Source of the DNA: an uncultured Prevotellaceae bacterium | GTDB taxonomy: Bacteria; Bacteroidota; Bacteroidia; Bacteroidales; Muribaculaceae | NCBI GenBank assembly: GCA_900318065.1 | Contig: ONIY01000002.1 | Span: 24,482-88,481 of the forward strand | Reading direction: 5' to 3' | DNA: 64,000 bases | The notes under the pieces: generated by a model | Told to the model about the DNA's origin: nothing | Seen by the model: the letters and a program-made list of their open reading frames with translations, nothing else | The model's database searches: none | In this document: one piece after another, positions 3,257 to 64,000 of the stretch | Layout: each line of letters begins with the position of its first letter | Numbering within the stretch: position 1 is the first letter of the stretch | Program-made: the position numbers and the translations under genes

Positions 3257-3862
3257 TCAGTTCATGCTCACGTCATCGGGCCAGGCATCCCACAGGCGGT
3301 ACTGGTCGCCAAAGCGTGCCACGGCGTTGCGCCACATGTCTTCGTTAGCGTCGCTCATCACCAGTGCTGCGACATCGCCTTTGAGCACTGCCCAGTCGTG
3401 GCGGCTCACCTCGTTGTCGAGTTGACCCTTGGTCCACCCGCTGTAGCCCACCATGAACTTCACCTTCTGGTTCACGTTCTCGCCGTTGGCAAGAAAAAGT
3501 TTCATCAACTCAAAGTCGCCACCAAAGTACAGTCCTGGCGCCACTTGCTCGCTGCCAGGGATGGCGTCTTTTCCCAGCGAGTGCACAAAGAACAGCATGT
3601 TGGTACCCACTGGCCCTCCCAGGTAGAGTGGGATAGTCTCGTTGCACACCACCTCGGGCACCAGTTCGTTGAGGGTGAACCGGGTGGGCTTGTTGACGAT
3701 GACTCCCATCGAACCATCCACATCGTCGTGGTCGACGAGCACCGTGACGCTGCGTTTGAAGCACAGGTCCTCCACCGTGGGCTTTGCCACAAGCAGGGTG
3801 CCGCGTGCCGGTTGGGGCTGCGTGTCGAGCAGGTTGAATATGTCAAGGTCGAGATTTTCCAT
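3257..3862 (-). CDS. YqgE/AlgH family protein
   Basis: 201 residues. The family signatures are present: ARGTLLVAKPTVEDLCFKRS near the start, VGVIVNKPT-like MGVIVNKPTRFTLNEL, LYLGGPVG, and VGYSGWTKGQLDNEV near the C-terminal third. YqgE/AlgH proteins form a compact cytoplasmic fold of uncertain biochemical role. The ATG at 3862 is chosen over two upstream in-frame ATGs because a TATTTTTG promoter box lies at 3870-3877, leaving almost no leader; the upstream ATGs would lie before the transcription start. Confidence 0.88.
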   Translation of the reverse strand: MENLDLDIFNLLDTQPQPARGTLLVAKPTVEDLCFKRSVTVLVDHDDVDGSMGVIVNKPTRFTLNELVPEVVCNETIPLYLGGPVGTNMLFFVHSLGKDAIPGSEQVAPGLYFGGDFELMKLFLANGENVNQKVKFMVGYSGWTKGQLDNEVSRHDWAVLKGDVAALVMSDANEDMWRNAVARFGDQYRLWDAWPDDVSMN

Positions 3863-4123: not shown

Positions 4124-5119
4124 ATGAGTGAAACAGTAAATATTCGAGAGTTAAACGACATCATTGCCACTAAGAGCAGTTTTGTCAACACTATCACACA
4201 GGGAATGAATCAAACCATCGTTGGCCAAAAGCATCTCATCGACTCGTTGCTTATTGCATTGCTGGCCAACGGACATGTGCTCCTTGAGGGCGTGCCAGGT
4301 CTGGCTAAGACGCTCGCCATCAAGACGCTGTCGCAATTAATCGATGCCAAGTACAGCCGCATCCAGTTCACCCCCGACCTGCTGCCTGCCGACGTCATTG
4401 GCACCATGGTCTACAGTATCCAGAAGGAGAAGTTTGAGGTGAAGCGGGGACCAGTCTTTGCCAACTTCGTTCTCGCCGACGAGATTAACCGTGCTCCTGC
4501 CAAGGTGCAGAGCGCGCTGCTCGAGGCGATGCAGGAGCGTCAGGTCACCATTGGCGACAACACCTTCCAGCTCGACGAGCCATTCCTGGTAATGGCAACC
4601 CAAAACCCCATTGAGCAAGAGGGCACCTATCCCTTGCCCGAGGCACAAGTCGACCGTTTCTTGATGAAGGTGGTGATAGGCTACCCCAACCGTCAGGAGG
4701 AGAAAGACATCATCAGGATGAACATTGGCGCAAGCCAGCCACACATAACACCACTTGTAAGCCCTGCCGACATCGTTGACGTGCGCAACGTGGTGAAGCA
4801 AATCTACATCGACGAGAAGATCGAACGCTACATCGTCGACATCGTCTTTGCCACCCGTTTCCCCGACGAGTATGGCCTCAACGACCTCAAGAGCATCATC
4901 TCCTTTGGTTCTTCGCCACGTGCCTCTATCAGCATGGCACTGGCAGCGAGAGCCTATGCTTTCTTGCGTGGTCGTGGATATGTGATCCCCGAGGACGTGC
5001 GCGCTGTGTGTCACGACGTGATGCGCCACCGCCTGGGATTGAGCTATGAGGCCGAGGCCAACAATATTACCGCCGACGAGATTATTAGCAACATCCTCGA
5101 CAAGATTGCAGTGCCATAG
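4124..5119 (+). CDS. MoxR family AAA+ ATPase
   Basis: 331 residues, the usual size of MoxR ATPases. Walker A is GVPGLAKT at residues 56-63, Walker B is VLADE at 116-120 followed by INRAP, and MATQNP is sensor 1. MoxR ATPases act as chaperone-like remodellers for VWA-domain partners, here the Bat proteins encoded downstream. First gene of the operon moxR - DUF58 - membrane gene - batA - batB - batC - batDE, which in Bacteroides fragilis is linked to aerotolerance. A degenerate heptad array separates it from the next gene. Confidence 0.93.
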   Translation: MSETVNIRELNDIIATKSSFVNTITQGMNQTIVGQKHLIDSLLIALLANGHVLLEGVPGLAKTLAIKTLSQLIDAKYSRIQFTPDLLPADVIGTMVYSIQKEKFEVKRGPVFANFVLADEINRAPAKVQSALLEAMQERQVTIGDNTFQLDEPFLVMATQNPIEQEGTYPLPEAQVDRFLMKVVIGYPNRQEEKDIIRMNIGASQPHITPLVSPADIVDVRNVVKQIYIDEKIERYIVDIVFATRFPDEYGLNDLKSIISFGSSPRASISMALAARAYAFLRGRGYVIPEDVRAVCHDVMRHRLGLSYEAEANNITADEIISNILDKIAVP

Positions 5120-5215
5120 TGGTTGTCAGTAATCAGTTGTCAGTAATCAGTAATCAGTTTTCAGTTTTAGTGACAGTGATTGGTGATTAGTTTTCGGTCA
5201 ACTGTTTTTGGTCTG
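5120..5215. repeat. Degenerate heptad array (TNNTCAG type) inside the bat operon
   Basis: Six adjoining heptads read TTGTCAG, TAATCAG, TTGTCAG, TAATCAG, TAATCAG and TTTTCAG, followed by decayed copies up to about 5215. The reverse complement CTGACAA/CTGATAA builds arrays near 12850, 44600 and 57720. The array sits between the stop of moxR and the start of the DUF58 gene. Confidence 0.75.
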
Positions 5216-12729: not shown

Positions 12730-12734
12730 TTTAG

Positions 12735-12900
12735 TTTATGGTTGATAGTTTATAGTTTATGGAAGATTGTGGCGAGACTAGGTGAGAGGTGAGAGGGAAG
12801 AGTTCTCAACTGCTCTACTACTCAACTATTCAACTATTTTACTAAAAAACTGACAACTGACAACTAATTACTGATAACTGACAACTGACAACTGACACCC
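12735..12900. repeat. Mixed 7/8-base degenerate repeat array
   Basis: Consecutive blocks: GTTTATG/GTTGATA/GTTTATA heptads (12737-12763), GTGAGAG heptads (12781-12796), ACTCAACT/ATTCAACT octads (12806-12845), and CTGACAA/CTGATAA heptads up to the next start codon at 12902. Each block type recurs at other sites in the window. Confidence 0.75.
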
Positions 12901-14034: not shown

Positions 14035-14041
14035 GCGCCCG

Positions 14042-14094
14042 CGAAACGTGGAAGGTGGAACGAAGAAGGTGGAAAGTGGAACGAGGCACGAGGA
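14042..14094. repeat. Degenerate heptad array (ACGTGGA type)
   Basis: Heptads ACGTGGA, AGGTGGA, ACGAAGA, AGGTGGA, AAGTGGA, ACGAGGC and ACGAGGA follow one another. The reverse complement of the same type occurs at about 37185-37217. Confidence 0.7.
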
Positions 14095-14152
14095 AATCAC
14101 GCAATTATTGAATTAGTTGTTCACAAAAAATAGAAAACTGAAAAGTATTTAG

Positions 14153-25333: not shown

Positions 25334-25469
25334 AGTTCCCCCTCTAAGATAGAGGGGGTTAGGGGGAGTATGAACTCCAATGACACATCTAACGATGAGG
25401 GAAAATTCAACGAAATCATCATACTCCCCCCCGCCCCCTCTATCTTAGAGGGGGAGTTTGTCGCCTGAT
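25334..25469. repeat. REPIN-like double palindrome
   Basis: The left part (25334-25372) has a hairpin CCCCCTCTA-AGA-TAGAGGGGG followed by TTAGGGGGAGTATGA. The right part (25427-25469) is its near-perfect inverse, TCATACTCCCC... then CCCCCTCTA-TCT-TAGAGGGGG. Together they make an inverted repeat of about 38 bases around a 54-base centre. The hairpin core recurs alone at 48057-48085. It lies between ispG and the SPOR lipoprotein gene. Confidence 0.8.
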
Positions 25470-29596: not shown

Positions 29597-29775
29597 TGGT
29601 CGTGGATCGGAGGTCGGGAATGGGGGATCGGGGATTGTGGGTCGAGCAATCGAGCAGTCGAGCAATCGAACAATCGAACAATCGAACAATCGAACAATCG
29701 ATAGAAACCGATCCTCTATCCTCTATCCTCTATCCTCTATCCTCTATCCCCGATCCCCATCCTCCATCCCCCACA
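29597..29775. repeat. Mirrored heptad array with octad core
   Basis: Left: G-rich heptads around GGGGATCGGGGATTG. Centre: octads GTCGAGCA, ATCGAGCA, then four ATCGAACA copies. Right: CTCTATC heptads (five in a row at about 29712-29749) and CCCGATC/CCCCATC/CTCCATC variants. The right block is roughly the reverse complement of the left. It lies upstream of rpoN. No gene is seen in the 279 bases between rpoN and the next gene. Confidence 0.8.
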
Positions 29776-32491: not shown

Positions 32492-33229
32492 ATGAATGAA
32501 CAAAATGCTCTTGCCAACTATCTGAAATATACTGGCAAAAAATCTTTCAACTTCACAACCGCTCTCGTCGACATGGACGGAGTGCTCTTCGACTCAATGA
32601 AGAATCACACCCGCGCCTGGGTGAAACTGATGAAGAAGAACGGCATCAAGTGCACGCGCGATGAGTTCTACATGTATGAGGGAATGACTGGACGTGACAT
32701 CATCAAGATGAAGTTCAAGAACGGAGCCGGCAAGAATGTGACCGACGACGAGGCGCAGGCGCTCTACAAGGTGAAGACACGCTATTTCACCGAGCTTGGC
32801 GACGTGGAGACGGTGGAAGGGACTCTCGCTGTGCTGCAGGCGCTGAAACAGGCAGGCATCAAGTGTGTGCTGGTGACTGGTTCGGGCACGCAGTCGATGC
32901 TGGAGCGCATTGATACCGACTACCCCGACATCTTCGACGAGCAACGCGTTACTGCTGCCGATGTGAAGCGCGGCAAGCCCAACCCCGAGCCCTATCTCAA
33001 GGCGATGGCTAAGGTGGGCGTGCAGCCCAACGAATGTGTTGTCCTTGAGAATGCCCCTCTGGGCGTTCAGGCTGGGCACACGGCAGGATGCTTCACCGTG
33101 GGCGTGACCACGGGTCCTATTCCTGAGAAGGATATGTACAAGGCTGGAGCCGATGTGGTCTACAAAGACATGGCATCGCTGCTCGAGGCACTGCCAGCCC
33201 TGCAAGAGGCGTTTAAGCAGCAACAATGA
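32492..33229 (+). CDS. HAD superfamily hydrolase, beta-phosphoglucomutase-like
   Basis: 245 residues. HAD motif I is VDMDGVLFDS near residue 27, motif II is VTGSG near 131, motif III lysine is in RGKPNPEPY near 165, and motif IV appears around VVLENAPLGVQAG. The alpha-helical cap between motifs I and II is typical of subclass Ia (phosphoglucomutase/phosphatase). The physiological substrate is not evident. It ends 13 bases before aroB, suggesting cotranscription. Confidence 0.88.
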   Translation: MNEQNALANYLKYTGKKSFNFTTALVDMDGVLFDSMKNHTRAWVKLMKKNGIKCTRDEFYMYEGMTGRDIIKMKFKNGAGKNVTDDEAQALYKVKTRYFTELGDVETVEGTLAVLQALKQAGIKCVLVTGSGTQSMLERIDTDYPDIFDEQRVTAADVKRGKPNPEPYLKAMAKVGVQPNECVVLENAPLGVQAGHTAGCFTVGVTTGPIPEKDMYKAGADVVYKDMASLLEALPALQEAFKQQQ

Positions 33230-33242
33230 CGCTGGTGCAGCA

Positions 33243-34289
33243 ATGTCGCAAGAATTGATTTATACTAACAAAGTAGATGCCACCCTCAAGTCGATTATTG
33301 AGGGTGGCAATTACAATCGTGTGATGGTGCTCGTCGACAGCAACACCAGGCTGGTGGCGCTGCCGCAACTGCCTTGTCTGAGTGATGCCTGGGTCATTGA
33401 GTTTCCCGCTGGCGACGAGAATAAGAGCACTGCCACGCTCGCTGCCGTGTGGCGCGCTATGGAAGACGGCAAGGCTACTCGCCACTCGCTGCTGGTGAAC
33501 CTGGGTGGGGGAGTGGTGACCGACTTGGGCGGTCTCGCCGCTGCCACTTTCAAGCGCGGCATCCATTTCGTCAACGTTCCCACCACACTGCTGGCGGCTG
33601 TCGACGCTGCCGTGGGTGGCAAGACGGGGGTGAATTTCAACGGCCTGAAAAACGAGATAGGGGTGTTTGCGCCTGCTCAGGAGGTGATTGTGAGCACCTG
33701 CTTTTTCGCGACTCTGTCGCGAGAGGAGCTCAAGTCGGGCTTTGCCGAGATGCTCAAGCACGCGATGCTCGACTCGCACGACCATTTCGCGCGGCTGCTG
33801 CATTTCGACCTTCATGATATTGATTACGACAAGCTGCTCGAACTCTTGCCCGCTTCGTTGCAGGTGAAGCAGCGCATTGTGGAGCAAGACCCCACCGAGG
33901 CTGGTCTGCGCAAAGCGCTCAACCTGGGGCACACCGTGGGCCACGCCTTCGAGAGCAAGGCGATGAGCGACGGCAGACCGGTGCCGCATGGTTATGCTGT
34001 GGCATGGGGACTGGTGGCAGAGGCGGTGCTCTCGCACATGACGCTGGGCTTCCCAAGCAGCGACCTCTACAGCCTCGCCCGCTTTGTGAAGGAGAACTAT
34101 GGCATGTTTCACTTCACCTGCGACCATTACGACCAGTTGATCGACCTGATGCGCCACGACAAGAAGAGCCGCGATGGCGAGATAAACTGCACGCTGCTCA
34201 AGCAATGTGGCGACCCAAAGATTGACAACACTATCACAACCCACGACATCAAAGCCGCCCTCGATATCTACCGAGACTTGATGGAATAG
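33243..34289 (+). CDS. aroB: 3-dehydroquinate synthase
   Basis: 348 residues. The NAD-binding loop is NLGGGVVTDLGGLAAAT near residue 86, and the zinc ligands lie in KHAML and GHTVGHAFE, with HGYAVAWG after them. AroB converts DAHP to 3-dehydroquinate in the shikimate pathway. The ATG at 33243 is chosen over an upstream frame that lies within the HAD gene. It is convergent with the MATE gene across a repeat array. Confidence 0.95.
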   Translation: MSQELIYTNKVDATLKSIIEGGNYNRVMVLVDSNTRLVALPQLPCLSDAWVIEFPAGDENKSTATLAAVWRAMEDGKATRHSLLVNLGGGVVTDLGGLAAATFKRGIHFVNVPTTLLAAVDAAVGGKTGVNFNGLKNEIGVFAPAQEVIVSTCFFATLSREELKSGFAEMLKHAMLDSHDHFARLLHFDLHDIDYDKLLELLPASLQVKQRIVEQDPTEAGLRKALNLGHTVGHAFESKAMSDGRPVPHGYAVAWGLVAEAVLSHMTLGFPSSDLYSLARFVKENYGMFHFTCDHYDQLIDLMRHDKKSRDGEINCTLLKQCGDPKIDNTITTHDIKAALDIYRDLME

Positions 34290-34505
34290 GGGATCGGGGA
34301 TGGGGGATGGGAGATCGGTGTCCATCGAATGCTCGAATGCTCGATCGCTCGAAGACTCGACCGCTCGAATGCTCGACCGCTCGAATGCTCGACCGCTCGA
34401 ATGCTCGACCGCTCGAATGCTCGACCGCTCGAATGCTCGAATGCTCGAATGCTCGATCGCTCGACTTCCCATCCCCGATCCACTATCCTCGATCCCCCAT
34501 CCTTG
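34289..34505. repeat. Mirrored heptad array with octad core between convergent genes
   Basis: Left: GGGGATC/GGGGATG/GAGATCG heptads. Centre: about seventeen octads of the CTCGANNN type, mostly CTCGAATG alternating with CTCGACCG (34328-34465). Right: CCCATCC, CCGATCC, ACTATCC, TCGATCC, CCCATCC heptads. The right block holds the stop codon of the MATE gene (34483-34485). Confidence 0.85.
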
Positions 34506-35811
34506 ATTCCCGCACGAAGTGCTTTTGCCAGATGATGGTCTGCACTAGGCTGCGGGTGGTGAGGAATGCGACAAACGCTATCCACAGGGCGTGGTTGCCC
34601 AGCGACGCGGGCAGCGAGAAATAGAGTGCAAAGAACAGGGCGCACGCCGTTGCCACCGCAGCGAGCATGCCGCGTGTGGCAGTGACGCCAATGAACACGC
34701 CGTCCCACACAAAGGCTGCCATGCTCACCAGTGGCACCACCGAGCACCACCAGTGGTAACGCATCGCCTCGGCGACGACTTCGCCCTCATTGGTGAACAG
34801 CGAAAAGATGCTGTGGGGAAACACCGAGTAGGCGATGACAAACACCATGGTGAGCGACGTGCTCCACACGAAGAGCCAGCGCACGCAGCGATGCATGAGA
34901 CGATAGTTGCGCGCACCGTAATATTTTCCTGCCACAGCCTCGCCGGCAAAGGCGATGCCGTCCATGAAGTAGCTGTAGAGGTGGAACAGCTGCTGCATCA
35001 GGGTGTTAACAGCCAGCACGATGTCGCCACCCATGGCGCCAGCACGAATGAAGAAGAGATTCACCGCCAGCATGAACACGCAGCGCACGAAGATGTCGCT
35101 GCTCACCTTGAAGAAGCGGCCACTACCCTTGAAGTTGAAGGCACTGGCAAGGTGCAACTCGCGCACGATAGTGGCAAAGCGATGGCGCACGCGCCAGCAG
35201 GCGTAGGCCACGCCCACCCACACCGCCGTGAGAGTGCCCACGGCAATGCCCTTGAAGCCCATGTCGAGCACATAGACCGCCACCAGGCTCACCACCACGT
35301 TGAGCACGTTCACGCCTATGGAGATGAGCATAGGGCTGCGAGAGTCCTGCATGCCCAGCAGCCACCCTTTTATCGACATCGTCACGAGTACGGCGGGAGC
35401 GCCCCACACCACTATGCCAAAGTAGGTACCCGCGAGGGCAGCCACCTCGTCGCCTGGTGCCATTATCCACAGCAGCAGCCACTTGATGGGTGCTTGAAGC
35501 AGCACGATTACGGCACCGGCTATCAACGCAATGGCACACGAGCGCTGCAGCGTGTCGACCTGAGCGCTGTGCACGCCACTGCCATAGGCCTGTGCCGTGA
35601 GCCCCGACGTGCCCATGCGCAGGAACCCCAGGTTCCAGTACAGCACGTTCATCATCATCGCGCCCACTGCCACTGCGCCTATATACTGCGGCGCACCCAG
35701 GTGGCCAGCGATGCCCGTATCGAGCAGTCCCAGCAGCGGCTCGGCAATGTTGGCAATTATCGCCGGCAGCGATATCGCAATGATTTCTCTATTTATCTTT
35801 GATAGTCTCAT
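34483..35811 (-). CDS. MATE family efflux transporter
   Basis: 442 residues with twelve predicted helices. The start, INREIIAISLPAIIANIAEPLLGLLDTGIAGHLG, and the AQAYGSG motif near residue 76 fit the DinF/NorM branch of MATE transporters, which export organic cations or drugs using a sodium or proton gradient. The last residues (ESRMGDRG) are encoded by the flanking repeat array, so the true ancestral end was probably near HFVRE. Unrelated at the sequence level to the second MATE gene at 62018. Confidence 0.9.
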   Translation of the reverse strand: MRLSKINREIIAISLPAIIANIAEPLLGLLDTGIAGHLGAPQYIGAVAVGAMMMNVLYWNLGFLRMGTSGLTAQAYGSGVHSAQVDTLQRSCAIALIAGAVIVLLQAPIKWLLLWIMAPGDEVAALAGTYFGIVVWGAPAVLVTMSIKGWLLGMQDSRSPMLISIGVNVLNVVVSLVAVYVLDMGFKGIAVGTLTAVWVGVAYACWRVRHRFATIVRELHLASAFNFKGSGRFFKVSSDIFVRCVFMLAVNLFFIRAGAMGGDIVLAVNTLMQQLFHLYSYFMDGIAFAGEAVAGKYYGARNYRLMHRCVRWLFVWSTSLTMVFVIAYSVFPHSIFSLFTNEGEVVAEAMRYHWWCSVVPLVSMAAFVWDGVFIGVTATRGMLAAVATACALFFALYFSLPASLGNHALWIAFVAFLTTRSLVQTIIWQKHFVRESRMGDRG

Positions 35812-36117
35812 GTTAGGTGAATCGGGGATCGGGGATCGAGGATCGGCGCTGCAAAGGTAGTAAAAAGTTTTCAGTTGTCAGTTTTCGGCTTTTAGTAAAA
35901 TAGTTGAATAGTAGAGTAGTTTTTAGTTTAAAGATTGTTGAGTCTTAGAGTCTCTTCTCTGTCTTCCATAAACCATAAACTACAAACCATAAACAAAACT
36001 TGTCTTCCATAAACCATAAACCAATAAACCTATCCCCTATCCCCTATCCCCTATCCTCGATCCCCCATCCCCCATCCCCCATCCCCCATCCCCGAATAGT
36101 TAAACTTGCTTAATAGC
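35812..36117. repeat. Gene-free stretch filled with 7/8-base repeat blocks
   Basis: The 369 bases between the divergent MATE and lipoprotein genes hold no gene. In order: GGGATCG heptads, TTTTCAG/TTGTCAG heptads, TAGTTGAA/TAGTAGAG octads, CATAAAC heptads (35968-36022), and CCCTATC/CCCCATC heptads (36029-36094). Only the last 50 bases look like an ordinary promoter. Confidence 0.8.
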
Positions 36118-36149
36118 TTTGGGTGGTGTGGGTTTAGTTATTAACTTTG
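36118..36149 (+). promoter_or_regulatory. Complete Bacteroides promoter for the DUF4595-like gene
   Basis: TTTG at 36118-36121 (-33 box) and TAACTTTG at 36142-36149 (-7 box), separated by 20 bases. Confidence 0.7.
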
Positions 36150-36180
36150 CAAGCAGTAATAACAAAAAATGGTAACTATT

Positions 36181-37029
36181 ATGAAGTACATCAAATATCT
36201 GGCTATTGCCATGGTGCTGGTTGCGATGGTGGCTTGTGGTGACGATGAGCCACAGAGCACCTATCAGCGTGATTTCAACATGATTTACCCCGTGCTGCCC
36301 GCTGGGCACAAGTCTATCAGCAAGATAGAGCGCAAGTACGACCGTGGCAATACGACCGTGGCAACCGCCAGCTACGACGGCGACTACCTCAAGAGCATCA
36401 ATGTGGTGAACCGCGACGTCGATGGCAGCCTGCTCAACGAGGAGACTATCACCATCGACTACAAGAATGGCGCAATCATCTGCGACAAGAAAATCCAAGA
36501 TGTGACCTATGCCTTCGAGGTTAACAGCTACGGCGCTTTCACCAAGTTCAGCAATGTGTCGACGGGTCGCACCTCGTCGGCGATGACCTACGACGGCTCG
36601 GGACACCTCGAGATAGCACAGGTGGTAACTCCCACCACCACTGGTACCACAGTGGTGAACTGGATGGACGGAAACCTCACGCAGTGGGTGAGCCGCGACG
36701 TCAACAAACTCGACAGCGTGGTATATGAGTATGGCACTAACGCTATCCCCAACAAGGGCAACATCGATGTGGCTGGCAACGAGTCGTTCACCTTCACCAC
36801 CTTTGTGTGCGCGATTATGCGCAACGCGGGCCTCTTTGGCACCACCAGCGCCAAACTCCCCACGGTAATCAAGAAGGGCTATGACTACTCTGCTGTCGAC
36901 GCTTCTAATCCTGATGCCGTAGAACTCAAGCGCTACAACATCACCTACACCCTCGACGCACAGGGCTACGTGACAAGCTACACCACCAACGAGACACCAC
37001 GATACACGGTTACCTACACCTATAGGTAA
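36181..37029 (+). CDS. DUF4595-like lipoprotein
   Basis: 282 residues. The lipoprotein signal ends VAC (cysteine near residue 18). The body is built of repeated beta hairpins with YDGDYLKSINVV, YDGSGHLEIAQVV and YTLDAQGYVTSYTTN, as in DUF4595 and related Rhs-like beta sheets of Bacteroidetes surface proteins. No catalytic site is visible. Start at 36181 (MKYIKYL) opens the signal directly; 36169 is possible. It ends at the left edge of a repeat array. Confidence 0.65.
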   Translation: MKYIKYLAIAMVLVAMVACGDDEPQSTYQRDFNMIYPVLPAGHKSISKIERKYDRGNTTVATASYDGDYLKSINVVNRDVDGSLLNEETITIDYKNGAIICDKKIQDVTYAFEVNSYGAFTKFSNVSTGRTSSAMTYDGSGHLEIAQVVTPTTTGTTVVNWMDGNLTQWVSRDVNKLDSVVYEYGTNAIPNKGNIDVAGNESFTFTTFVCAIMRNAGLFGTTSAKLPTVIKKGYDYSAVDASNPDAVELKRYNITYTLDAQGYVTSYTTNETPRYTVTYTYR

Positions 37030-37262
37030 GGGTTAAGTCATAAGTCATAAGTGTTAAGTGTTAAGTGTTAAGTGTTAAGTGTTAAGTATTCGAGCGATCG
37101 AGCAGTCGAGTATTCGAGTATTCGAGCAGTCGAGCGATCGAGCAGTCGAGCAGTCGAGCAGTCGAGGGACTACTACCGTCTATCGTTCCACGTTCTTCGT
37201 TCCACGTTCCACGTGCCGCAGGCGCAACTTAACACTTAACACTTAACACTTAACACTTATAA
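37030..37262. repeat. Mirrored heptad array with octad core between convergent genes
   Basis: TTAAGTG heptads (37055-37089) are followed by NNTCGAGN octads (37088-37168), then CGTTCCA/CGTTCTT heptads (37185-37217), and CACTTAA heptads (37227-37261). The last block is the exact inverse of the first, so the flanks could pair over about 30 bases. Confidence 0.85.
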
Positions 37263-37263
37263 C

Positions 37264-38454
37264 TTAATCCCCCACTGCTTTAGGCAAGGTGATAAGTTCC
37301 GGGGCGAGATCTATGCGATAGGTCTCGCCTCGTTTGCCTGTAATGCAGTAGTGATCAGCGAGTTTATTGTTTAAGATGCACGACTTGAAGCAGCGGTTAA
37401 TCTTGGAGATGTACTCGTTGAGAGTGTTGCTCATGGGGTCGAGCAGGTTGTCGATGCTTTCCTTGGTCTTCTCCTCGCTGCGGCCAGGCTTGACAACGGA
37501 GTAGATGCTCTCCAGGTCGGCGCGGTGCCCGGCGATGTCGCGTAGTGCGATGCCCTCGGGGTGCTTGAGGAAAAGGATGTAGATGGTGCGGCACATGGCA
37601 GGCATCTTCACCTCCACCTCGTTATAGTTGGGCAGCACTATCTTGAGGTCGTTATTCACCACGAGCTTGCTCAGCTGGTCCTTTTGCCCGAGCACTATCT
37701 TTCCCTCAAGCATTGTGTTCAGCAGTTGCGTGGGGTCGTCATGATAAGTTGTCACATATTCTAAGATCTTTGCCTGAATGTCTCTCAATGCCTGCTCTTT
37801 CTGTTGCTCGATGGTGAGGATTTCCTGTTCTTCCTCTTGCTCTTCCTTGTCTATGGCGGGAAGTGATGGGCTGCTCTTTTCTACTGAGAATTTCAGGCTG
37901 TTACTGAGGTCGGCCTCTTCAAAAAAATCGATATATTGTTCAAGACTCTCCTTATTAAGGCGGCGACAGGCTCTGGCCTCACTTACTGGCTTAGGAATAT
38001 CCTCGCCGGGGAATTCTTCGTAGTCATAACAATTATTAATACCGCTGGCAGCAAACACTTCTAATTCATCGGGGTTTTCCTCATGAATGTTTATCTTGGC
38101 GGTGAGCACCTGGTCGCCCTCGTCGGTGCCTACCACATCAATAGCACTCTCGGCAAATCGCACGATGTCGCTAAAGGAATCGGTATTGAGATCCATTCGC
38201 ACCACCGCATCCTTGCCGGCGTTGCCCACATTGAATCGTCGAGACATGAGAGTAGTGCCCGTGTCCATCATCATGTCATGGGGCGCTTCTTTAAACTCAA
38301 TTTTAAATCCTGTGATTTTTTCCAGTAAGTGCAGCAGTCGTGGCGAAAGTCGGTTGAACTCCGCATTACTTTTTCTCGATGGTGTGAACACATAAATCAC
38401 ACCATAGCGCAAGTTTTTCTTAAGTCGTGAGAAATAATCAGTAAAGAGCATCAT
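37264..38454 (-). CDS. Unknown protein with Bacteroidetes-type C-terminal module
   Basis: 396 residues, no signal peptide. Residues 1-60 are basic and aromatic; the middle (about 150-250) is acidic with E/Q-rich coiled-coil character. The last 110 residues (MCRTIYILFLKHPEGIALRDIAGHRADLESIY..., then SNTLNEYISKINRCF and HYCITGKRGETYRIDL) form a module I associate with uncharacterised Bacteroidetes proteins, possibly a winged helix. I do not recognise a function. The start at 38454 is used because a terminator hairpin lies at 38505-38536. It follows the VWA gene, but the terminator suggests separate transcription. Confidence 0.75.
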   Translation of the reverse strand: MMLFTDYFSRLKKNLRYGVIYVFTPSRKSNAEFNRLSPRLLHLLEKITGFKIEFKEAPHDMMMDTGTTLMSRRFNVGNAGKDAVVRMDLNTDSFSDIVRFAESAIDVVGTDEGDQVLTAKINIHEENPDELEVFAASGINNCYDYEEFPGEDIPKPVSEARACRRLNKESLEQYIDFFEEADLSNSLKFSVEKSSPSLPAIDKEEQEEEQEILTIEQQKEQALRDIQAKILEYVTTYHDDPTQLLNTMLEGKIVLGQKDQLSKLVVNNDLKIVLPNYNEVEVKMPAMCRTIYILFLKHPEGIALRDIAGHRADLESIYSVVKPGRSEEKTKESIDNLLDPMSNTLNEYISKINRCFKSCILNNKLADHYCITGKRGETYRIDLAPELITLPKAVGD

Positions 38455-43545: not shown

Positions 43546-44502
43546 ATGGACATTTCGGTTGTAGTGCCACTATTTAACGAGGCGGAGTCGCTGCCTGAGC
43601 TGGCGGCGTGGATTGAACGTGTGATGAATGAGCACAACTTCACCTACGAGGTGCTGATGATTAACGACGGCAGCACCGACGACTCATGGCGGGTAATAAA
43701 AGAACTGAGCGAGAAGAACCCTTGCATCAAGGGGGTGAGCTTCCGTCGCAACTACGGCAAGTCGCCTGCGCTGTTCACTGGATTTGAGCGCGTGCAGGGC
43801 GATGTTGTCATCACCATGGATGCCGACCTCCAGGACTCGCCCGACGAGATTCCCGAGCTCTACCGCATGATCACCGAGGACGGCTACGACCTGGTGAGCG
43901 GATGGAAGCAGAAGCGCTACGACCCGCTGTCGAAGACCTTGCCCACCAAGCTCTTCAACGCCACCGCACGCAAGGTGAGCGGCATCAAGAACCTGCACGA
44001 CTTCAACTGCGGTCTCAAGGCCTATCGCCGCGAGGTGGTAAAGCACATCGAGGTCTATGGCGACATGCACCGCTACATCCCTTATCTTGCCAAGAACGCC
44101 GGTTTCAACAAGATAGGCGAGAAGGTGGTGCACCATCAGGCACGCAAGTATGGCAAGTCGAAGTTTGGGCTCGACCGCTTTGTCAATGGCTATCTTGACC
44201 TGATGACGCTGTGGTTCCAGTCAAAGTTTGGCGTCAAGCCCATGCACTTCTTTGGCCTGCTGGGAAGCCTCATGTTCTTCATTGGTTTGATAGCGGTGAT
44301 TGCCGTGGGAGCGATAAAACTCTATAACATGCACGCTGGCAACCACTATATCCTGGTTACCGACTCGCCCTATTTCTACCTCGCCCTCACATGCATGATT
44401 CTGGGCACCCAACTGTTCCTGACGGGATTCCTGGGCGAACTCATAGCCCGCAACTCCTCAGGCCGCAACCACTACGAGATAGAGGAGGAAATAAAGGGGT
44501 AA
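43546..44502 (+). CDS. Family 2 glycosyltransferase, DPM1/GtrB type
   Basis: 318 residues. The GT-A domain begins ISVVVPLFNEAESLPEL, with MINDGSTDDSW near residue 34 and MDADLQDSPDEIP near 90 (the DXD metal site). Two C-terminal helices (about 230-255 and 272-295) anchor it. Proteins of this size transfer a sugar from a nucleotide donor to polyprenyl phosphate (as DPM1 and GtrB do). Operon partner: the DUF4199 gene upstream. The end is followed by a heptad array. Confidence 0.9.
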   Translation: MDISVVVPLFNEAESLPELAAWIERVMNEHNFTYEVLMINDGSTDDSWRVIKELSEKNPCIKGVSFRRNYGKSPALFTGFERVQGDVVITMDADLQDSPDEIPELYRMITEDGYDLVSGWKQKRYDPLSKTLPTKLFNATARKVSGIKNLHDFNCGLKAYRREVVKHIEVYGDMHRYIPYLAKNAGFNKIGEKVVHHQARKYGKSKFGLDRFVNGYLDLMTLWFQSKFGVKPMHFFGLLGSLMFFIGLIAVIAVGAIKLYNMHAGNHYILVTDSPYFYLALTCMILGTQLFLTGFLGELIARNSSGRNHYEIEEEIKG

Positions 44503-44632
44503 GTGTTAAGTGTTAAGTGTTAAGTGTTAAGGGTTAAGGGTTAAGTGTTAAGGGTAAAGTGGCCCGGAAAATCCGGAAAATCCGGAACTTCCGGGAAAAA
44601 CTGACAACTGACAACTGACAACTGATAACTGA
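44500..44632. repeat. Heptad array (TTAAGTG then CTGACAA types)
   Basis: Seven or eight TTAAGTG/TTAAGGG heptads (44502-44557), a GGAAAATCC/GGAACTTCC stretch, then four CTGACAA/CTGATAA heptads ending directly before the ATG at 44633. Confidence 0.75.
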
Positions 44633-45109
44633 ATGAGGCGACTGATATACATATTTCTAATGCTAGTTGTGGGGTGTTTCCTGGCAACGGGCATTGTCGC
44701 GTGCAGTAACGACAACTGCATGGGCAACAGCAATGGCATTCCACTGGCGGCTTTCTATGAGGGCAACAATGCTGTTACACTTCCTAGCCTAACGGTGTAT
44801 GGCATAGGCGCTCCTAACGACAGCGCCATCATCAGGAATTCCAGTGCCAGCCAGGTGTACCTGCCACTGCGCATCACTGCCACTACTTGCGAGTATGTGC
44901 TGGACTATAACGGCACCGAAATCGATAACGACACCCTAACGCTCAATTATGACATCATTCCCTATTTTGAGTCGCGCGAGTGTGGGGCGATGTATAACTT
45001 CGACATCAAGTCGTGGGAGTTCACGTGCCATGCCATCGACTCGGTGGCAATCCCCGATACACGTATCACCAATGCCGACGTAGTAACCATCAAGATTTTT
45101 ATGCAATGA
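44633..45109 (+). CDS. DUF6452 family lipoprotein
   Basis: 158 residues. A lipoprotein signal ends IVAC (cysteine near residue 24). The sequence SNDNCMGNSNGIPLAAFYE..., the LTVYGIGAPNDSAI stretch and the paired cysteines (C...C near residues 85 and 116) match the pattern I know from DUF6452, a Bacteroidetes lipoprotein encoded next to a DUF6048 gene. Function unknown. Its stop overlaps the start of the DUF6048 gene (AATGA), so the two are coupled. Confidence 0.75.
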   Translation: MRRLIYIFLMLVVGCFLATGIVACSNDNCMGNSNGIPLAAFYEGNNAVTLPSLTVYGIGAPNDSAIIRNSSASQVYLPLRITATTCEYVLDYNGTEIDNDTLTLNYDIIPYFESRECGAMYNFDIKSWEFTCHAIDSVAIPDTRITNADVVTIKIFMQ

Positions 45110-51887: not shown

Positions 51888-52799
51888 ATGGAGCAAAATA
51901 GTAAACGCCCGTCATGGTTTATGAATCTTGTCCTGCTGTGTTGCGGGGCAATGGTGGCGCTCTTTGTGGTGTCGGTGATAATTTTTGTGTGCTTTGGGCC
52001 AAACGTCACCAGTGTGGGGCTCGGCCCGCAACTTACCGCAGTGGTGCTGCAAAACATCGTGGTGTTTATCTTGCCGGTGGTGCTGTTGGCATTGATCAAC
52101 AAGAGTGTGGAGCACCGCAAAATGGAGTCGTCGCTATGGACGGAGCATGGGCCCACGCTACGGTCGATAGCGCTGGTTGTGCTTGTCTACATCGTGGCGC
52201 TGCCTGCCATGAACTATATAGTGGACTGGAACCAGAACCTGCACCTGCCACATGCTCTTAACGGGCTGGAGAAAACGATGCGCGCGATGGAAGACGGCGC
52301 TCAGGCCGTCACCGAGCAGCTGCTCAATACCGAGTCGTGGGCGATGATGCTGATGACGGTGCTGCTGGTGGGTGTGCTCACCGGCATGGGCGAGGAAGCG
52401 TTTTTCAGGGCTGGTATGCTGGGCTCTATGAGGCATGGAGGCGTCAACCGCCATGTGGCAGTATGGACTGCCGCAATAGTGTTCAGCGCCATCCACTTGC
52501 AGTTCTACGGCTTCGTGCCGCGCATGCTGCTGGGGGCGTGGTTTGGATATGTGATGCTGTGGAGCGGCGAGGTGTGGACTCCCATCATAGCCCACGCGCT
52601 CAACAACAGTGCTGTGGTGGTGTGCACCTTCCTGGCTCACAATAAATACATCTCTGGCAATTTCCTCGAGACCCTGGGCGTGCCACAGCAGGGCGAAAAG
52701 CCATTTCTGGCAATCGCCAGCGCCATCGCAACGGCACTGGTGATATGGGCTTTCATGAGAAAAAGAGGTGAGAGGGAAGAGGTGAGAGGGAAGAGGTGA
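51888..52799 (+). CDS. CPBP family intramembrane protease
   Basis: 303 residues with eight helices. The metal and catalytic motifs are GMGEEAFFRAGMLG near residues 165-178 (EEXXXR) and FSAIHLQFYGFVPRMLLG near 204. CPBP (Abi) proteins are glutamic-type intramembrane proteases, the relatives of Rce1. The substrate is unknown. The last eleven residues (RGEREEVRGKR) are encoded by GTGAGAG/GAAGAG heptads of the adjoining repeat array, so the C-terminus changes with array length. ATG at 51888 follows the -7 box. Confidence 0.9.
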   Translation: MEQNSKRPSWFMNLVLLCCGAMVALFVVSVIIFVCFGPNVTSVGLGPQLTAVVLQNIVVFILPVVLLALINKSVEHRKMESSLWTEHGPTLRSIALVVLVYIVALPAMNYIVDWNQNLHLPHALNGLEKTMRAMEDGAQAVTEQLLNTESWAMMLMTVLLVGVLTGMGEEAFFRAGMLGSMRHGGVNRHVAVWTAAIVFSAIHLQFYGFVPRMLLGAWFGYVMLWSGEVWTPIIAHALNNSAVVVCTFLAHNKYISGNFLETLGVPQQGEKPFLAIASAIATALVIWAFMRKRGEREEVRGKR

Positions 52800-52886
52800 G
52801 AGGTGAGAGGTGAGACTGCTCGACTGCTTGACTGCTCGACCGCTCGATTTTCCATCCCCGATCCCCGATCTCCCATCCCCGATAAA
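52765..52886. repeat. Heptad/octad array overlapping the end of the CPBP gene
   Basis: AGAGGTG/AGAGGGA heptads (52765-52814), then octads CTGCTCGA, CTGCTTGA, CTGCTCGA, CCGCTCGA (52816-52847), then CCATCCC/CGATCCC/CGATCTC heptads (52850-52883). This is the same block order as at 29597 and 34289. Confidence 0.8.
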
Positions 52887-52908
52887 CAATAAACAAAAAA
52901 ATATCATC

Positions 52909-57039: not shown

Positions 57040-57635
57040 ATGCACATTGTCATAGCCGGAAATATAGGTTCAGGAAAGTCGACGCTCACGCGGTTGCTGG
57101 CGCAGCATTATGGGTGGACACCACGCTATGAGAGTGTCGCCCACAACCCCTATCTCGAAGACTATTACCACGACATCCAGCGATGGTCGTTCAACCTTGA
57201 GGTTTATTTCCTCAAGGAGCGATTTCGCGACCTGCTCGCAATATCGCATGCTCAAGACGTGTTTATGTCTTTGTGGCCAACAACCGCGCCATGGGCAACA
57301 TCTCGGAACGAGACTTCGAGACCTATATGGAACTCTTTGAGCAGATGCTCACTGTGGTGAAACTGCCCGACCTGATGATTTACCTGCGCTCCTCGGTAGA
57401 GCACCTGGTATCCAACATCCAGAAGCGTGGCCGCGACTATGAGCAGACCATGCAGATTGAATATCTCGACAACCTAAACCGCCGCTACGAGGACTTCATC
57501 AACAACCACTACAAGGGACGCGTGATGATTGTCGAAAAGGACAACCTCGACTTCGAGAACCGGCCCGAAGACTTCGTGGGAATCACTAACCGCATCGACT
57601 CGCTGCTCTACGGCTTGTTCCCAATAAACAGGTGA
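57040..57635 (+). pseudogene. Deoxynucleoside kinase, broken by a small internal deletion
   Basis: Codons 1-74 (57040-57261) give a normal kinase start with the P-loop GNIGSGKST, equal in layout to the intact paralog at 57787. After AQDV the reading frame is lost; from 57261 on another frame continues VYVFVANNRAMGNISERDFETY and runs normally to the stop at 57635. Aligned to the paralog, ten codons plus one base (31 nucleotides) are missing, including the conserved QDR(S/T) motif that carries the catalytic arginine. The remaining C-terminal part has the LID motif (QKRGRDYEQT). No functional kinase can be made. Loss looks recent since both halves are still well conserved. Confidence 0.85.
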
Positions 57636-57780
57636 GAGGTGAGAGGTGAGAGGTGAGAGGTGAGAGGGAAGAGTTCTCTACTACTCAACTATTTTACTAA
57701 AAAACTGAGAACTGATGACTGAGAACTGAAAACTGATAACTGATAACTTAAAACTTAAAACTTAACACTTAACACTTAAT
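57636..57780. repeat. Heptad arrays between the kinase pseudogene and its paralog
   Basis: Five GTGAGAG heptads (57633-57668), then ACTCAACT octads, then CTGAGAA/CTGAAAA/CTGATAA heptads, then CTTAAAA/CTTAACA heptads up to 57778. The same four types as at 12735 and 37030. Confidence 0.75.
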
Positions 57781-57786
57781 ATCGTT

Positions 57787-63361: not shown

Positions 63362-63667
63362 CTAACTGTTGCGTAACATGGTGCTCACGATTTCGAGCAT
63401 CTGGCAGTTGAGTTCACGGCTGGTGTCTACCACGTTCCAGATGCCGTCTTCGCTCAGCACTCCGCACTTGAGGTCCTTGGGCAGTCGCCCTGCCTCGCTG
63501 TCGTCGAAGTCTTGTTGCCACTCGTCGCTCACGAGATAATCATCAATAGTTTCAATCGACTCCATCGCCTCGGTGTAGAGGTCGAGGGCATCGCTCAACG
63601 CCTTTACTGCAGCCTCAGCCTTGTTGAGGTGCTCTTCCATTGTCTTGATTCTTTCAATCTGTTCCAT
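63362..63667 (-). CDS. DUF4298 protein
   Basis: 101 residues. ERIKTMEEHLNKAEAAVKALSDALDLYTEAMESIETIDDYLVSDEWQQDFDDSEAGRLPKDLKCGVLSEDGIW follows the DUF4298 pattern: a coiled-coil-like N-terminus and a conserved Y-L-x-S-x-E-W segment. Cytoplasmic; function unknown. Its start lies next to a heptad array that separates it from the gene upstream. Confidence 0.85.
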   Translation of the reverse strand: MEQIERIKTMEEHLNKAEAAVKALSDALDLYTEAMESIETIDDYLVSDEWQQDFDDSEAGRLPKDLKCGVLSEDGIWNVVDTSRELNCQMLEIVSTMLRNS

Positions 63668-63726
63668 TTGTTAGTTATCAGTTAACAGTAGTCAGTTATC
63701 AGTAGTCAGTATTCAGTTATCAGTAG
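63668..63726. repeat. Degenerate heptad array (GTTATCA type)
   Basis: Eight consecutive heptads: GTTATCA, GTTAACA, GTAGTCA, GTTATCA, GTAGTCA, GTATTCA, GTTATCA, GTAGTTC. The array overlaps the stop codon of the gene ending at 63720. Confidence 0.75.
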
Positions 63727-64000
63727 TTCGGTATCGCAAGGCGGTGCCTTGCGAAGTCGAGGCGCAGTACTGTGGCTGGGGTGCCGGCTTGTGGCTGAGG
63801 GAGATTCAGCTGCTTGAGTCGCTGCTTGAGTTGCTGGCGTGAGGCACTCTCGTGGAATGCCTTCTCAATGATGTGGATGTCGCTTGTGGCGGCGACGCAC
63901 AGCGGTTGTGGCACATAAACTGTGTTGCCCAGCTCGCGGTCGAAAGGAAGGATGGAGATGAGAGTGCCATCGTCGCCCACTGTGGTGATGTGGTTGACAA
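63720..64000 (-). CDS. C-terminal part of an unidentified protein (cut by window edge)
   Basis: The frame is open to the window end, giving about 92 C-terminal residues. VNHITTVGDDGTLISILPFDRELGNTVYVPQPLCVAAT reads as beta strands with a G-D-D-G turn, and a helical end with QQLKQRLKQLNLPQ follows. I do not recognise the family. The stop codon lies in the heptad array, so the last residues may vary. Confidence 0.6.
   Translation of the reverse strand, partial: VNHITTVGDDGTLISILPFDRELGNTVYVPQPLCVAATSDIHIIEKAFHESASRQQLKQRLKQLNLPQPQAGTPATVLRLDFARHRLAIPNY

Follow-up and report, generated by a model that had tools for sequence, protein, structure and literature searches.

What are the tandem arrays of seven- and eight-base units that occupy gaps between genes in a 64,000-nucleotide stretch of contig ONIY01000002.1 (assembly GCA_900318065.1, an uncultured Prevotellaceae gut bacterium placed by GTDB in the Muribaculaceae), and how did they get there? 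In this stretch, hereafter the window, and elsewhere in the genome, the arrays are modules of short units, 7 bp long in the arms and 8 or 9 bp in the core, which follow a common grammar of G-rich heptads, an octad or nonad core, and C-rich heptads. The arms are polar: read 5' to 3' away from the gene edge, the strand is G-rich, and the sense flips at the core. Module length varies by whole units in the parsed copies of one cassette, as replication slippage or unequal exchange would cause, and conserved linkers join the modules into cassettes. We give about an even chance to the reading that the arrays are modules of lineage-specific dispersed intergenic repeats, behaving like selfish or tolerated mosaic repeats that are driven by slippage, multiplied by copying from one intergenic site to another and sifted by selection. 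The original prediction, made from the letters of the window, is confirmed in its observation of the arrays and partly supported in its interpretation.

Arrays in the window were mapped with Tandem Repeats Finder, a lag scan and a base-level map, and all twelve sites listed in the original prediction carry period-7 arrays, period-8 arrays or both. In the lag scan, arrays of period 7 cover 954 bp, those of period 8 447 bp and those of period 9 42 bp, with 0 bp at periods 3-6 and 10-13; 20 Markov shuffles left periods 4-8 and 10-14 empty (0 bp) and produced 1.85 bp on average at period 9. The predicted strict period of 7 or 8 is indeed dominant, but a period-9 class is also present (in the window at 44560-44601), made of CCGG or CTAG plus five bases and occupying the octad position. 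Rfam gave no match in the window at gathering scores.

For the genome of origin (2.985 Mb in 97 contigs), we analyzed 857 kb in 41 stretches on long contigs, window included and not a random draw, on which the counts below rest unless another scope is given. Genes were called crudely as the longest open reading frames (ORFs) of at least 80 residues, ORFs mainly inside arrays being dropped, and edge distances and start codons are approximate. The sample holds 138 arrays of period 7, 22 of period 8 and 13 of period 9. Periods 6, 10, 11 and 12 account for 3, 4, 1 and 5 arrays, and outside 7 to 9 no period between 4 and 13 exceeds 5. At a laxer score, arrays account for 9.6% of the bases between genes and reach into 97 of 561 gaps; within 463 kb, 10.9% of it intergenic, 78 of the 102 arrays of period 7 to 9 lie mainly outside the gene calls. 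The 7-bp units thus stand in tandem far above chance and are mostly intergenic, as do the heptanucleotide repeats called short tandemly repeated repetitive sequences (STRRs) or long simple sequence repeats (LSSRs). Cyanobacterial STRRs are heptanucleotide repeats.

The unit types recur genome-wide, as had been predicted: two TTAAGTG units in tandem gave 70 overlapping matches in the genome versus 1 for a reversed-order control pattern, and eight heptad types (TTAAGTG, GGGGATC, ACGTGGA, AGGTGAG, TTGTCAG with its complement AACTGAN, GTTTATG, AAAGGAC and TTGTGCA) cover 129 of the 138 period-7 arrays. Most types combine several fixed positions with one or two open ones, such as the third base of TTNTCAG (A 42, G 29 and T 26 percent, units more than 3 changes from the type being excluded from all position percentages) and the variable positions of AGG(T/G)(G/A)AG and GTTTAT(G/A/T). 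Octads are mostly of TCGANNNN or CTACT/CAACT types, and nonads mostly consist of CTAG or CCGG plus five bases. In a more distant Bacteroidales contig (L152), arrays of period 9 and period 10 are built on TCGA, so the palindrome core can carry other spacings.

Polarity was counted on called arrays, with strand in multi-array gaps taken from the unit type. Among 35 gaps with at least two heptad arrays, 27 run G-to-C, none runs C-to-G and 8 keep the same strand. Heptad arrays nearer the left gene are richer in G than in C in 52 cases, richer in C in 9 and neutral in 3, and those nearer the right gene in 15, 53 and 1 cases, respectively (Fisher p 2.6e-13, left vs right). Where a core of octads or nonads is present (29 gaps), the heptad arrays to its left comprise 22 G-rich and 4 C-rich and those to its right 1 G-rich and 17 C-rich, with 2 further arrays between cores and 2 neutral. 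The same polarity holds between tandem neighbours (left 35:6, right 28:6) and divergent neighbours (left 10:3, right 9:2). A base-composition bias of intergenic edges was ruled out as the cause by 237 array-free gaps of 80-800 bp, which divide into 51 G-to-C and 48 C-to-G.

Relative to the genes themselves, arrays at start edges are C-rich in sense in 57 cases vs 11, and those at stop edges G-rich in sense in 59 vs 28. Of 27 class Q arrays, 21 have a start codon as their nearest edge with AACTGAN in sense, at a median of 7 bp and in 18 of the 21 within 30 bp; TTAAGTG is nearest a stop codon in the G-rich sense in 13 of 28 arrays, at a median of -3 bp. We also counted AACTGAN edges in 37 arrays, 2 from the same genome and 35 from others, drawn from 49 fetched loci after 12 had been dropped as duplicates of one array or as lacking a called array: 22 were nearest a start in sense, 0 a start in antisense, 10 a stop in antisense and 5 a stop in sense.

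In the window, the arrays are laid out as follows.
1165-1211, no strand assigned: period-8 array of TAGTTGAG type, octads without TCGA.
5121-5171, plus strand: TCAGTTN heptads (class Q, G-rich strand on plus), directly 3' of the stop codon of the ORF at 4124-5119.
12734-12900, plus strand: M-R-octad-q cassette of GTTTATG heptads, linker, AGGTGAG heptads, CTACT/CAACT octads and AACTGAN heptads, stopping just short of the PAP2 gene start (12902).
14040-14098, plus strand: ACGTGGA heptads (class V).
29605-29773, no strand assigned: GGGGATC-type heptads, TCGANNNN octads (29638-29709) and inverse ATCCTCT/ATCCCCG heptads (29703-29773).
34279-34324, plus strand: GGGGATC heptads at the stop codon of aroB (33153-34289).
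34323-34471, no strand assigned: core of TCGANNNN octads, about 17.5 copies, partly as 16-bp double units.
34468-34513, minus strand: inverse CCATCCC/CGATCCC heptads, overlapping the 3' end of the MatE ORF (34483-35811, minus strand).
35811-36103, no strand assigned: long composite of GGGGATC heptads (35811-35851), TCAGTTN heptads, AGTTG/AGTAG octads, then CATAAAC (35966-36030) and CCCTATC/CCCCATC (36019-36103) heptads; 35866-35993 is a copy of the cassette on the minus strand.
37024-37096, plus strand: TTAAGTG heptads at the stop codon of a DUF4595 gene (36169-37029).
37085-37173, no strand assigned: core of TCGANNNN octads (GCAGTCGA/GCGATCGA/GTATTCGA).
37182-37272, minus strand: CACGTTC heptads, hairpin-like linker GCCGCAGGCGC and CACTTAA heptads.
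44489-44639, no strand assigned: TTAAGTG heptads, period-9 CCGG core (44560-44601) and AACTGAC heptads (44591-44639), ending at the DUF6452 gene start (44633).
52756-52900, no strand assigned: AGGTGAG heptads, TCGA-type octads (52809-52851), ATCCCCG heptads, then AATAAAC heptads.
57620-57786, no strand assigned: R-octad-q composite partly matching the cassette, with AGGTGAG heptads, a short octad block, and AACTGAN and AACTTAA heptads, directly preceding the dNK gene start (57787).
63665-63736, plus strand: TCAGTTN/TCAGTAG heptads (class Q).

The original prediction held that several sites share the order of heptads, TCGA octads and inverse heptads, with flanks that could fold into large hairpins. 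The same unit does stand on both sides at 29597, 34289 and 37030, but arms are usually of different types: same-class mirrored arms occur in 2 of the 27 G-to-C gaps, where shuffling leads one to expect 4.4. Folded as RNA, six composites of the window gave z-scores of -3.8, -11.3, -0.4, -0.6, -3.6 and -3.1, so that four fold better than their shuffles (-3.1 to -11.3) and two do not (-0.4 and -0.6). Large hairpins are rejected as a general principle, given the usual class difference between arms and the two composites of six that fold no better than shuffles. Some sites can fold strongly, but the family is not defined by hairpins; its conserved feature is polarity, not reverse complementarity.

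The cassette at 12734-12900 shows how modules are joined. Its order is GTTTATG heptads, linker GGAAGACAGTGGCGAGATTAGG, AGGTGAG heptads, linker GAAGAGTTCTC, octads and AACTGAN heptads. A BLAST search of the genome of origin with 131 of its bases returned at least 50 rows at at least 40 distinct places; at least 20 rows, the query copy included, cover at least 100 of the 131 bases, and at least 20 further places match partially. These counts are lower bounds because only 40 of 146 first-look candidates were scored. Given the array counts and these places, arrays are neither absent nor unique per locus elsewhere in the genome, two findings that would have spoken against a family. Seven copies, from 30 fetched loci, could be parsed by anchors. 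Their AGGTGAG blocks measure 11, 18, 18, 18, 25, 32 or 130 bp, all 4 modulo 7, and their octad blocks 33 bp in five copies and 9 and 73 bp in one copy each, all 1 modulo 8; copy number thus changes by whole units in all seven, which bears out the suggestion that slipped-strand spread is conceivable. The cassette copies examined have no fixed ends, and their borders lie inside arrays of variable length, where a target-site duplication of the kind looked for in miniature inverted-repeat transposable elements is unreadable. In a set of fetched loci that totals 2.17 Mb and comes almost entirely from other genomes, long cassette matches occur only in L271, which belongs to the genome of origin (the set, intended as foreign DNA, included four own loci: L238, L241, L242 and L271); the other matches are fragments of 26-44 bp.

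A further linker, GCGCCTGCGGCGC, has 82 exact copies in the genome of origin and 0-5 in each of 80 congeners. In the sample, 24 of 28 printed copies have a called array no more than 30 bp away, and by eye the linker often sits between TTAAGTG and GGGGATC or ACGTGGA arms. At L209 (about 3388-3514), block copies stand in tandem 57 bp apart, each with a TTAAGTG tail, together with three GCGCCTGCGGCGC linkers and GTGGAAC units.

Such a dispersed intergenic mosaic of palindromic linkers and modules recalls repetitive extragenic palindromic (REP) sequences and bacterial interspersed mosaic elements (BIMEs), and these arrays could be mobilized in the same way, by a Y1 (REP-associated tyrosine, RAYT) transposase acting on the GCGCCTGCGGCGC linker. 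Six Y1_Tnp matches in the genome of origin would fit this proposal. Y1 counts, however, follow array counts weakly over 81 genomes (Spearman 0.20, p 0.07), the 2.0- and 3.3-kb loci around the two best of the six Y1 genes contain no array or linker, and the printed copies of the M-R-octad-q cassette lack GCGCCTGCGGCGC. We consider this explanation improbable; Y1 or RAYT as the mover is unsupported by the weak correlation and the two array-free loci.

The batD-pap2 junction of the window is 172 bp long and nearly all cassette. Of 16 congeners searched, 15 matched, and the cassette is absent from the orthologous junction in all 15: in 14 the junction measures -7 to 56 bp, and in the fifteenth (L351) it has 160 bp with other repeats. 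In congener G011, the junction carries a short ATAACTGATAACT, nearly two AACTGAN units (L342). The 3' end of aroB was inspected by eye in 11 named congeners, 4 with repeats and 7 with nothing clear. The repeats are TCGAATGC-type octads (L091), a two-unit TTAAGTG/CACTTAA inverted pair (L089), TCAGANN followed by CTCNCAA heptads (L093), and TACTTNN heptads (L095), so that one junction can hold different units in different species. The best named aroB matches are metagenome-assembled genomes labelled Muribaculaceae, Prevotellaceae or Porphyromonadaceae, several from rumen, including 'Candidatus Sodaliphilus limicaballi', whose match has the contig coordinates of the one in congener G004; the genome of origin is on this ground probably Sodaliphilus-like.

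Among relatives, the arrays are patchy. Of 81 genus genomes, own included, 39 carry AACTGAN triples and 42 have none (0 to 223 overlapping matches, the richest being G009); a reversed-order control matched in none of the 81. Across the phylum, 17 of 198 genomes, own included, have such triples, and the backwards control matched in 4. In 400 kb of G084, a congener assembled as one contig, period-7 arrays are absent. In the stretches of other congeners, heptads are again dominant and polarity is weaker (left 20:8, right 6:15, p 0.004; for G009 alone, left 6:5, right 2:6). G009 also carries TTTAGGC/TTTAGGT heptads as G-rich arms (L299-L304), facing CCTAAAG arms at L303 2468-2640; TTTAGGC and TTTAGGT are close to plant-type telomere repeats. 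Outside the family but within the class, G133, sampled as 400 kb in 20 stretches (5 of them picked at known matches), has 16 period-7 and 8 period-8 arrays, with polarity left 7:2 and right 2:9. The contig that was read in G133 comprises 2.59 Mb of about 2.6 Mb. The source of the window is a draft assembly in 97 contigs, which would favour an assembly or binning artefact, but like arrays are found in many separate assemblies, including this single 2.59-Mb contig, and the genes flanking the batD-pap2 junction are intact and orthologous. An artefact, which the original prediction had named as a possible refutation, is therefore barely credible.

The arrays might instead be functional, each unit being a recognition site for a Csp-, S1- or Rho-type or nucleoid protein, or the arrays acting as RNA, and have insulator, terminator or translation-leader roles at gene edges. 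Units do show position-specific fixation, AACTGAN lies directly upstream of starts in sense (21 of 27 own arrays, and 22 of the 22 nearest a start in the 37-array count), and four of six composites fold better than shuffles. A functional array sits less well with the patchy distribution (42 of 81 genus genomes without an AACTGAN triple, G084 without period-7 arrays in 400 kb), with a batD-pap2 junction that manages without the cassette in 15 of 15 congeners and with aroB-end units that differ between species. We regard this explanation as unlikely.

Returning to selfish or tolerated mosaic repeats, unit order was compared in 50 single-class arrays (a version including arrays that span two unit classes looked stronger). 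Neighbouring units resemble each other more than permuted ones at lag 2, where 0 of 1000 permutations were as low, and lag 3 had no effect. Whole-unit length changes and lag-2 likeness together suggest slippage or unequal exchange that often involves two units, and conserved linkers around variable blocks, taken with the empty orthologous junction, point to whole-cassette copying, by a route that we infer. An existing array would serve as the source from which a cassette is copied to a new site, most likely through template switching or break repair, for which a short stretch of the same heptads would act as the priming seed. Polarity may come partly from purifying selection, which would tolerate G-poor units such as AACTGAN immediately before a start codon and G-rich units immediately behind a stop codon.

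Several observations weigh against this reading. No enzyme or intermediate was found for the copying step. Similarity at lag 1 is marginal (57 of 1000 permutations), weaker than simple one-unit slippage predicts. Most classes have several unit positions at least 97% fixed and others open (for example TTNTCAG and GTTTATD), a position-specific fixation that is unpredicted by slippage and random mutation alone and predicted by protein recognition. Convergent gaps, which lie between two stop codons and are out of reach of start-codon selection, are polar too (left 7:0; right 16 C-rich, 7 G-rich), so the protection of start codons is not the sole cause of polarity. In G133, 1 of 4 gaps with at least two heptad arrays is G-to-C and 3 of 4 are same-strand. 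The closest relatives found are different species, so strain-level copy-number change is not visible. Finally, a noisy token labelling gave 100 forward vs 62 backward flips, and 20 forward, 7 same and 0 backward where a core lies between two heptad tokens. This finer token grammar, whose 10-base labels with up to 3 mismatches also fired in genes (1519 runs), was set aside, and its adjacency counts are unused.

The polarity itself suggests another origin: telomerase-like or other templated end extension, by which 3' ends leaving gene edges at breaks gain G-rich repeats and are then joined, yielding G-rich arm, core and C-rich arm. The observed polarity is that of a head-to-head telomere fusion; it persists where the two arms carry different units (27:0) and is present at both start and stop edges; in addition, a bacterial reverse transcriptase that adds 9-nt repeats to DNA, DRT10, has been described (PMC12632851). 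Against this, RVT_1 counts do not follow array numbers (Spearman 0.09, n=23), and array-bearing G009, G011 and G015 have no RVT_1 match, although divergent reverse transcriptases or assembly gaps could hide one. The stronger of the own genome's two RVT_1 matches, a 520-residue reverse transcriptase (L238), scores best with the PADLOC model RT-Protease_XI, which we take to be retron-type. Shared linkers and whole-cassette copies, moreover, require copying of existing arrays. A reverse transcriptase as the writer is unsupported by the RVT_1 counts, the RVT_1-free array-bearing genomes and the RT-Protease_XI assignment, and we hold templated extension to be very improbable. The same slight weight goes to a broader form, in which a DNA-copying or end-extension activity of Bacteroidota would write G-rich repeats onto 3' ends leaving gene edges, two ends meeting at the octad or nonad core as telomere-fusion-like marks, and the same polarity in Xanthomonas, Nostoc and Beggiatoaceae would reflect one shared process with different units.

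How much of this was known? Heptad repeats and their polarity have been described since 2015 for the single units GGGNATC and TAACTGA (PMC4692102, PMC4679880). GGGNATC-type repeats of Xanthomonas and Nostoc are intergenic heptads with the G-rich strand on the sense strand after stop codons and on the antisense strand before start codons, and lie nearer the 5' neighbour regardless of gene orientation (Rehm et al. 2015, PMC4692102); the Nostoc repeats bear out the parallel with cyanobacterial heptads drawn in the original prediction. Class G is mostly G(G/A)GGAT(C/G): its unit GGGGATC fits GGGNATC and is nearly identical to it, the common GAGGATC does not fit, and the position and strand rule relative to ORFs holds here as well. 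Unlike those repeats, followed as one unit family in PMC4692102, the present arrays have about eight types, octad or nonad cores that flip polarity, linkers and dispersed cassettes, and by eye most unit types here are without the G-runs needed for a G-quadruplex.

Direct TAACTGA repeats occur in Beggiatoaceae, Cyanobacteria and five Bacteroidetes including Paludibacter (MacGregor 2015, PMC4679880), so such repeats were already on record for Bacteroidota; the original prediction had known of no description for Bacteroidales. Most of them closely precede a start codon, in forward orientation, and the repeat-free intergenic regions of relatives are shorter; some Bacteroidetes have other heptamers alongside, and one has 'larger assemblages of heptamer repeats' (PMC4679880). 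The TAACTGA unit is identical to part of class Q (AACTGAN), which shares the sense orientation upstream of starts; this applies to class Q only (21 of 27 arrays). In the Beggiatoaceae genome, related heptamers are rarely repeated (PMC4679880). In the present genome, position seven of the unit is variable and the array makes up one arm of a composite. For heptanucleotide LSSRs, in which heptads are the commonest class and polymerase slippage was proposed (Mrazek 2007, cited in PMC4679880), composite grammar, core and polarity are not among the features described in the PMC4679880 passages on them. BIMEs and REP elements are likewise dispersed intergenic mosaics of short palindromes and linkers, REP sequences being tagged palindromes of 20-40 bp with a linked RAYT, but the present arrays are mostly short tandem repeat, and no RAYT link was found in the counts of 81 genomes or at the two best Y1 loci. 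The DRT10 product is likewise short-unit tandem DNA, of 9 nt, but a product of this kind would depend on a reverse transcriptase with its template RNA, and G009, G011 and G015 bear arrays with no RVT_1 match.

Titles and abstract openings, most subscription journals being outside their scope, yielded no multi-class 7/8/9 composites and no intergenic tandem repeats of Muribaculaceae. As far as this literature shows, what is new is a multi-class vocabulary under one polarity, a core where polarity flips, linkers and a dispersed cassette. The earlier heptad work compared here treated one unit at a time and proposed slippage or regulatory roles without a demonstrated mechanism. Here a single genome holds many unit types under one grammar, with unit length set by position (7 in arms, 8 or 9 in the core), fixed linkers, and a polarity tied to gene edges regardless of the unit or of the direction of the genes. 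Why 7, and why the G-rich strand, thereby become questions testable in one organism and comparable across phyla. The genome also shows that, inside a single genus, arrays of this kind are able to spread in cassette form and to reshape an operon junction.

The genome also holds separate dispersed palindromes. One, GGACAAGGC(G/A)(C/T)GCCTTGTCC, often with GTAG outside, has 20 matches in the 857 kb, and a sister form, GGACAACGC..GCGTTGTCC, has 13; both are located in L039-L058 and L209-L228, none in the window. Another, of CCCTCTAAGATAGAGGG type, lies in the window at 25340, 25436 and 48063 and gave 53 pattern matches, with both strands searched and some places counted twice. At 63734, a hairpin, TCGCAAGGC..GCCTTGCGA, with 6 matches in the same sample, adjoins a heptad array.

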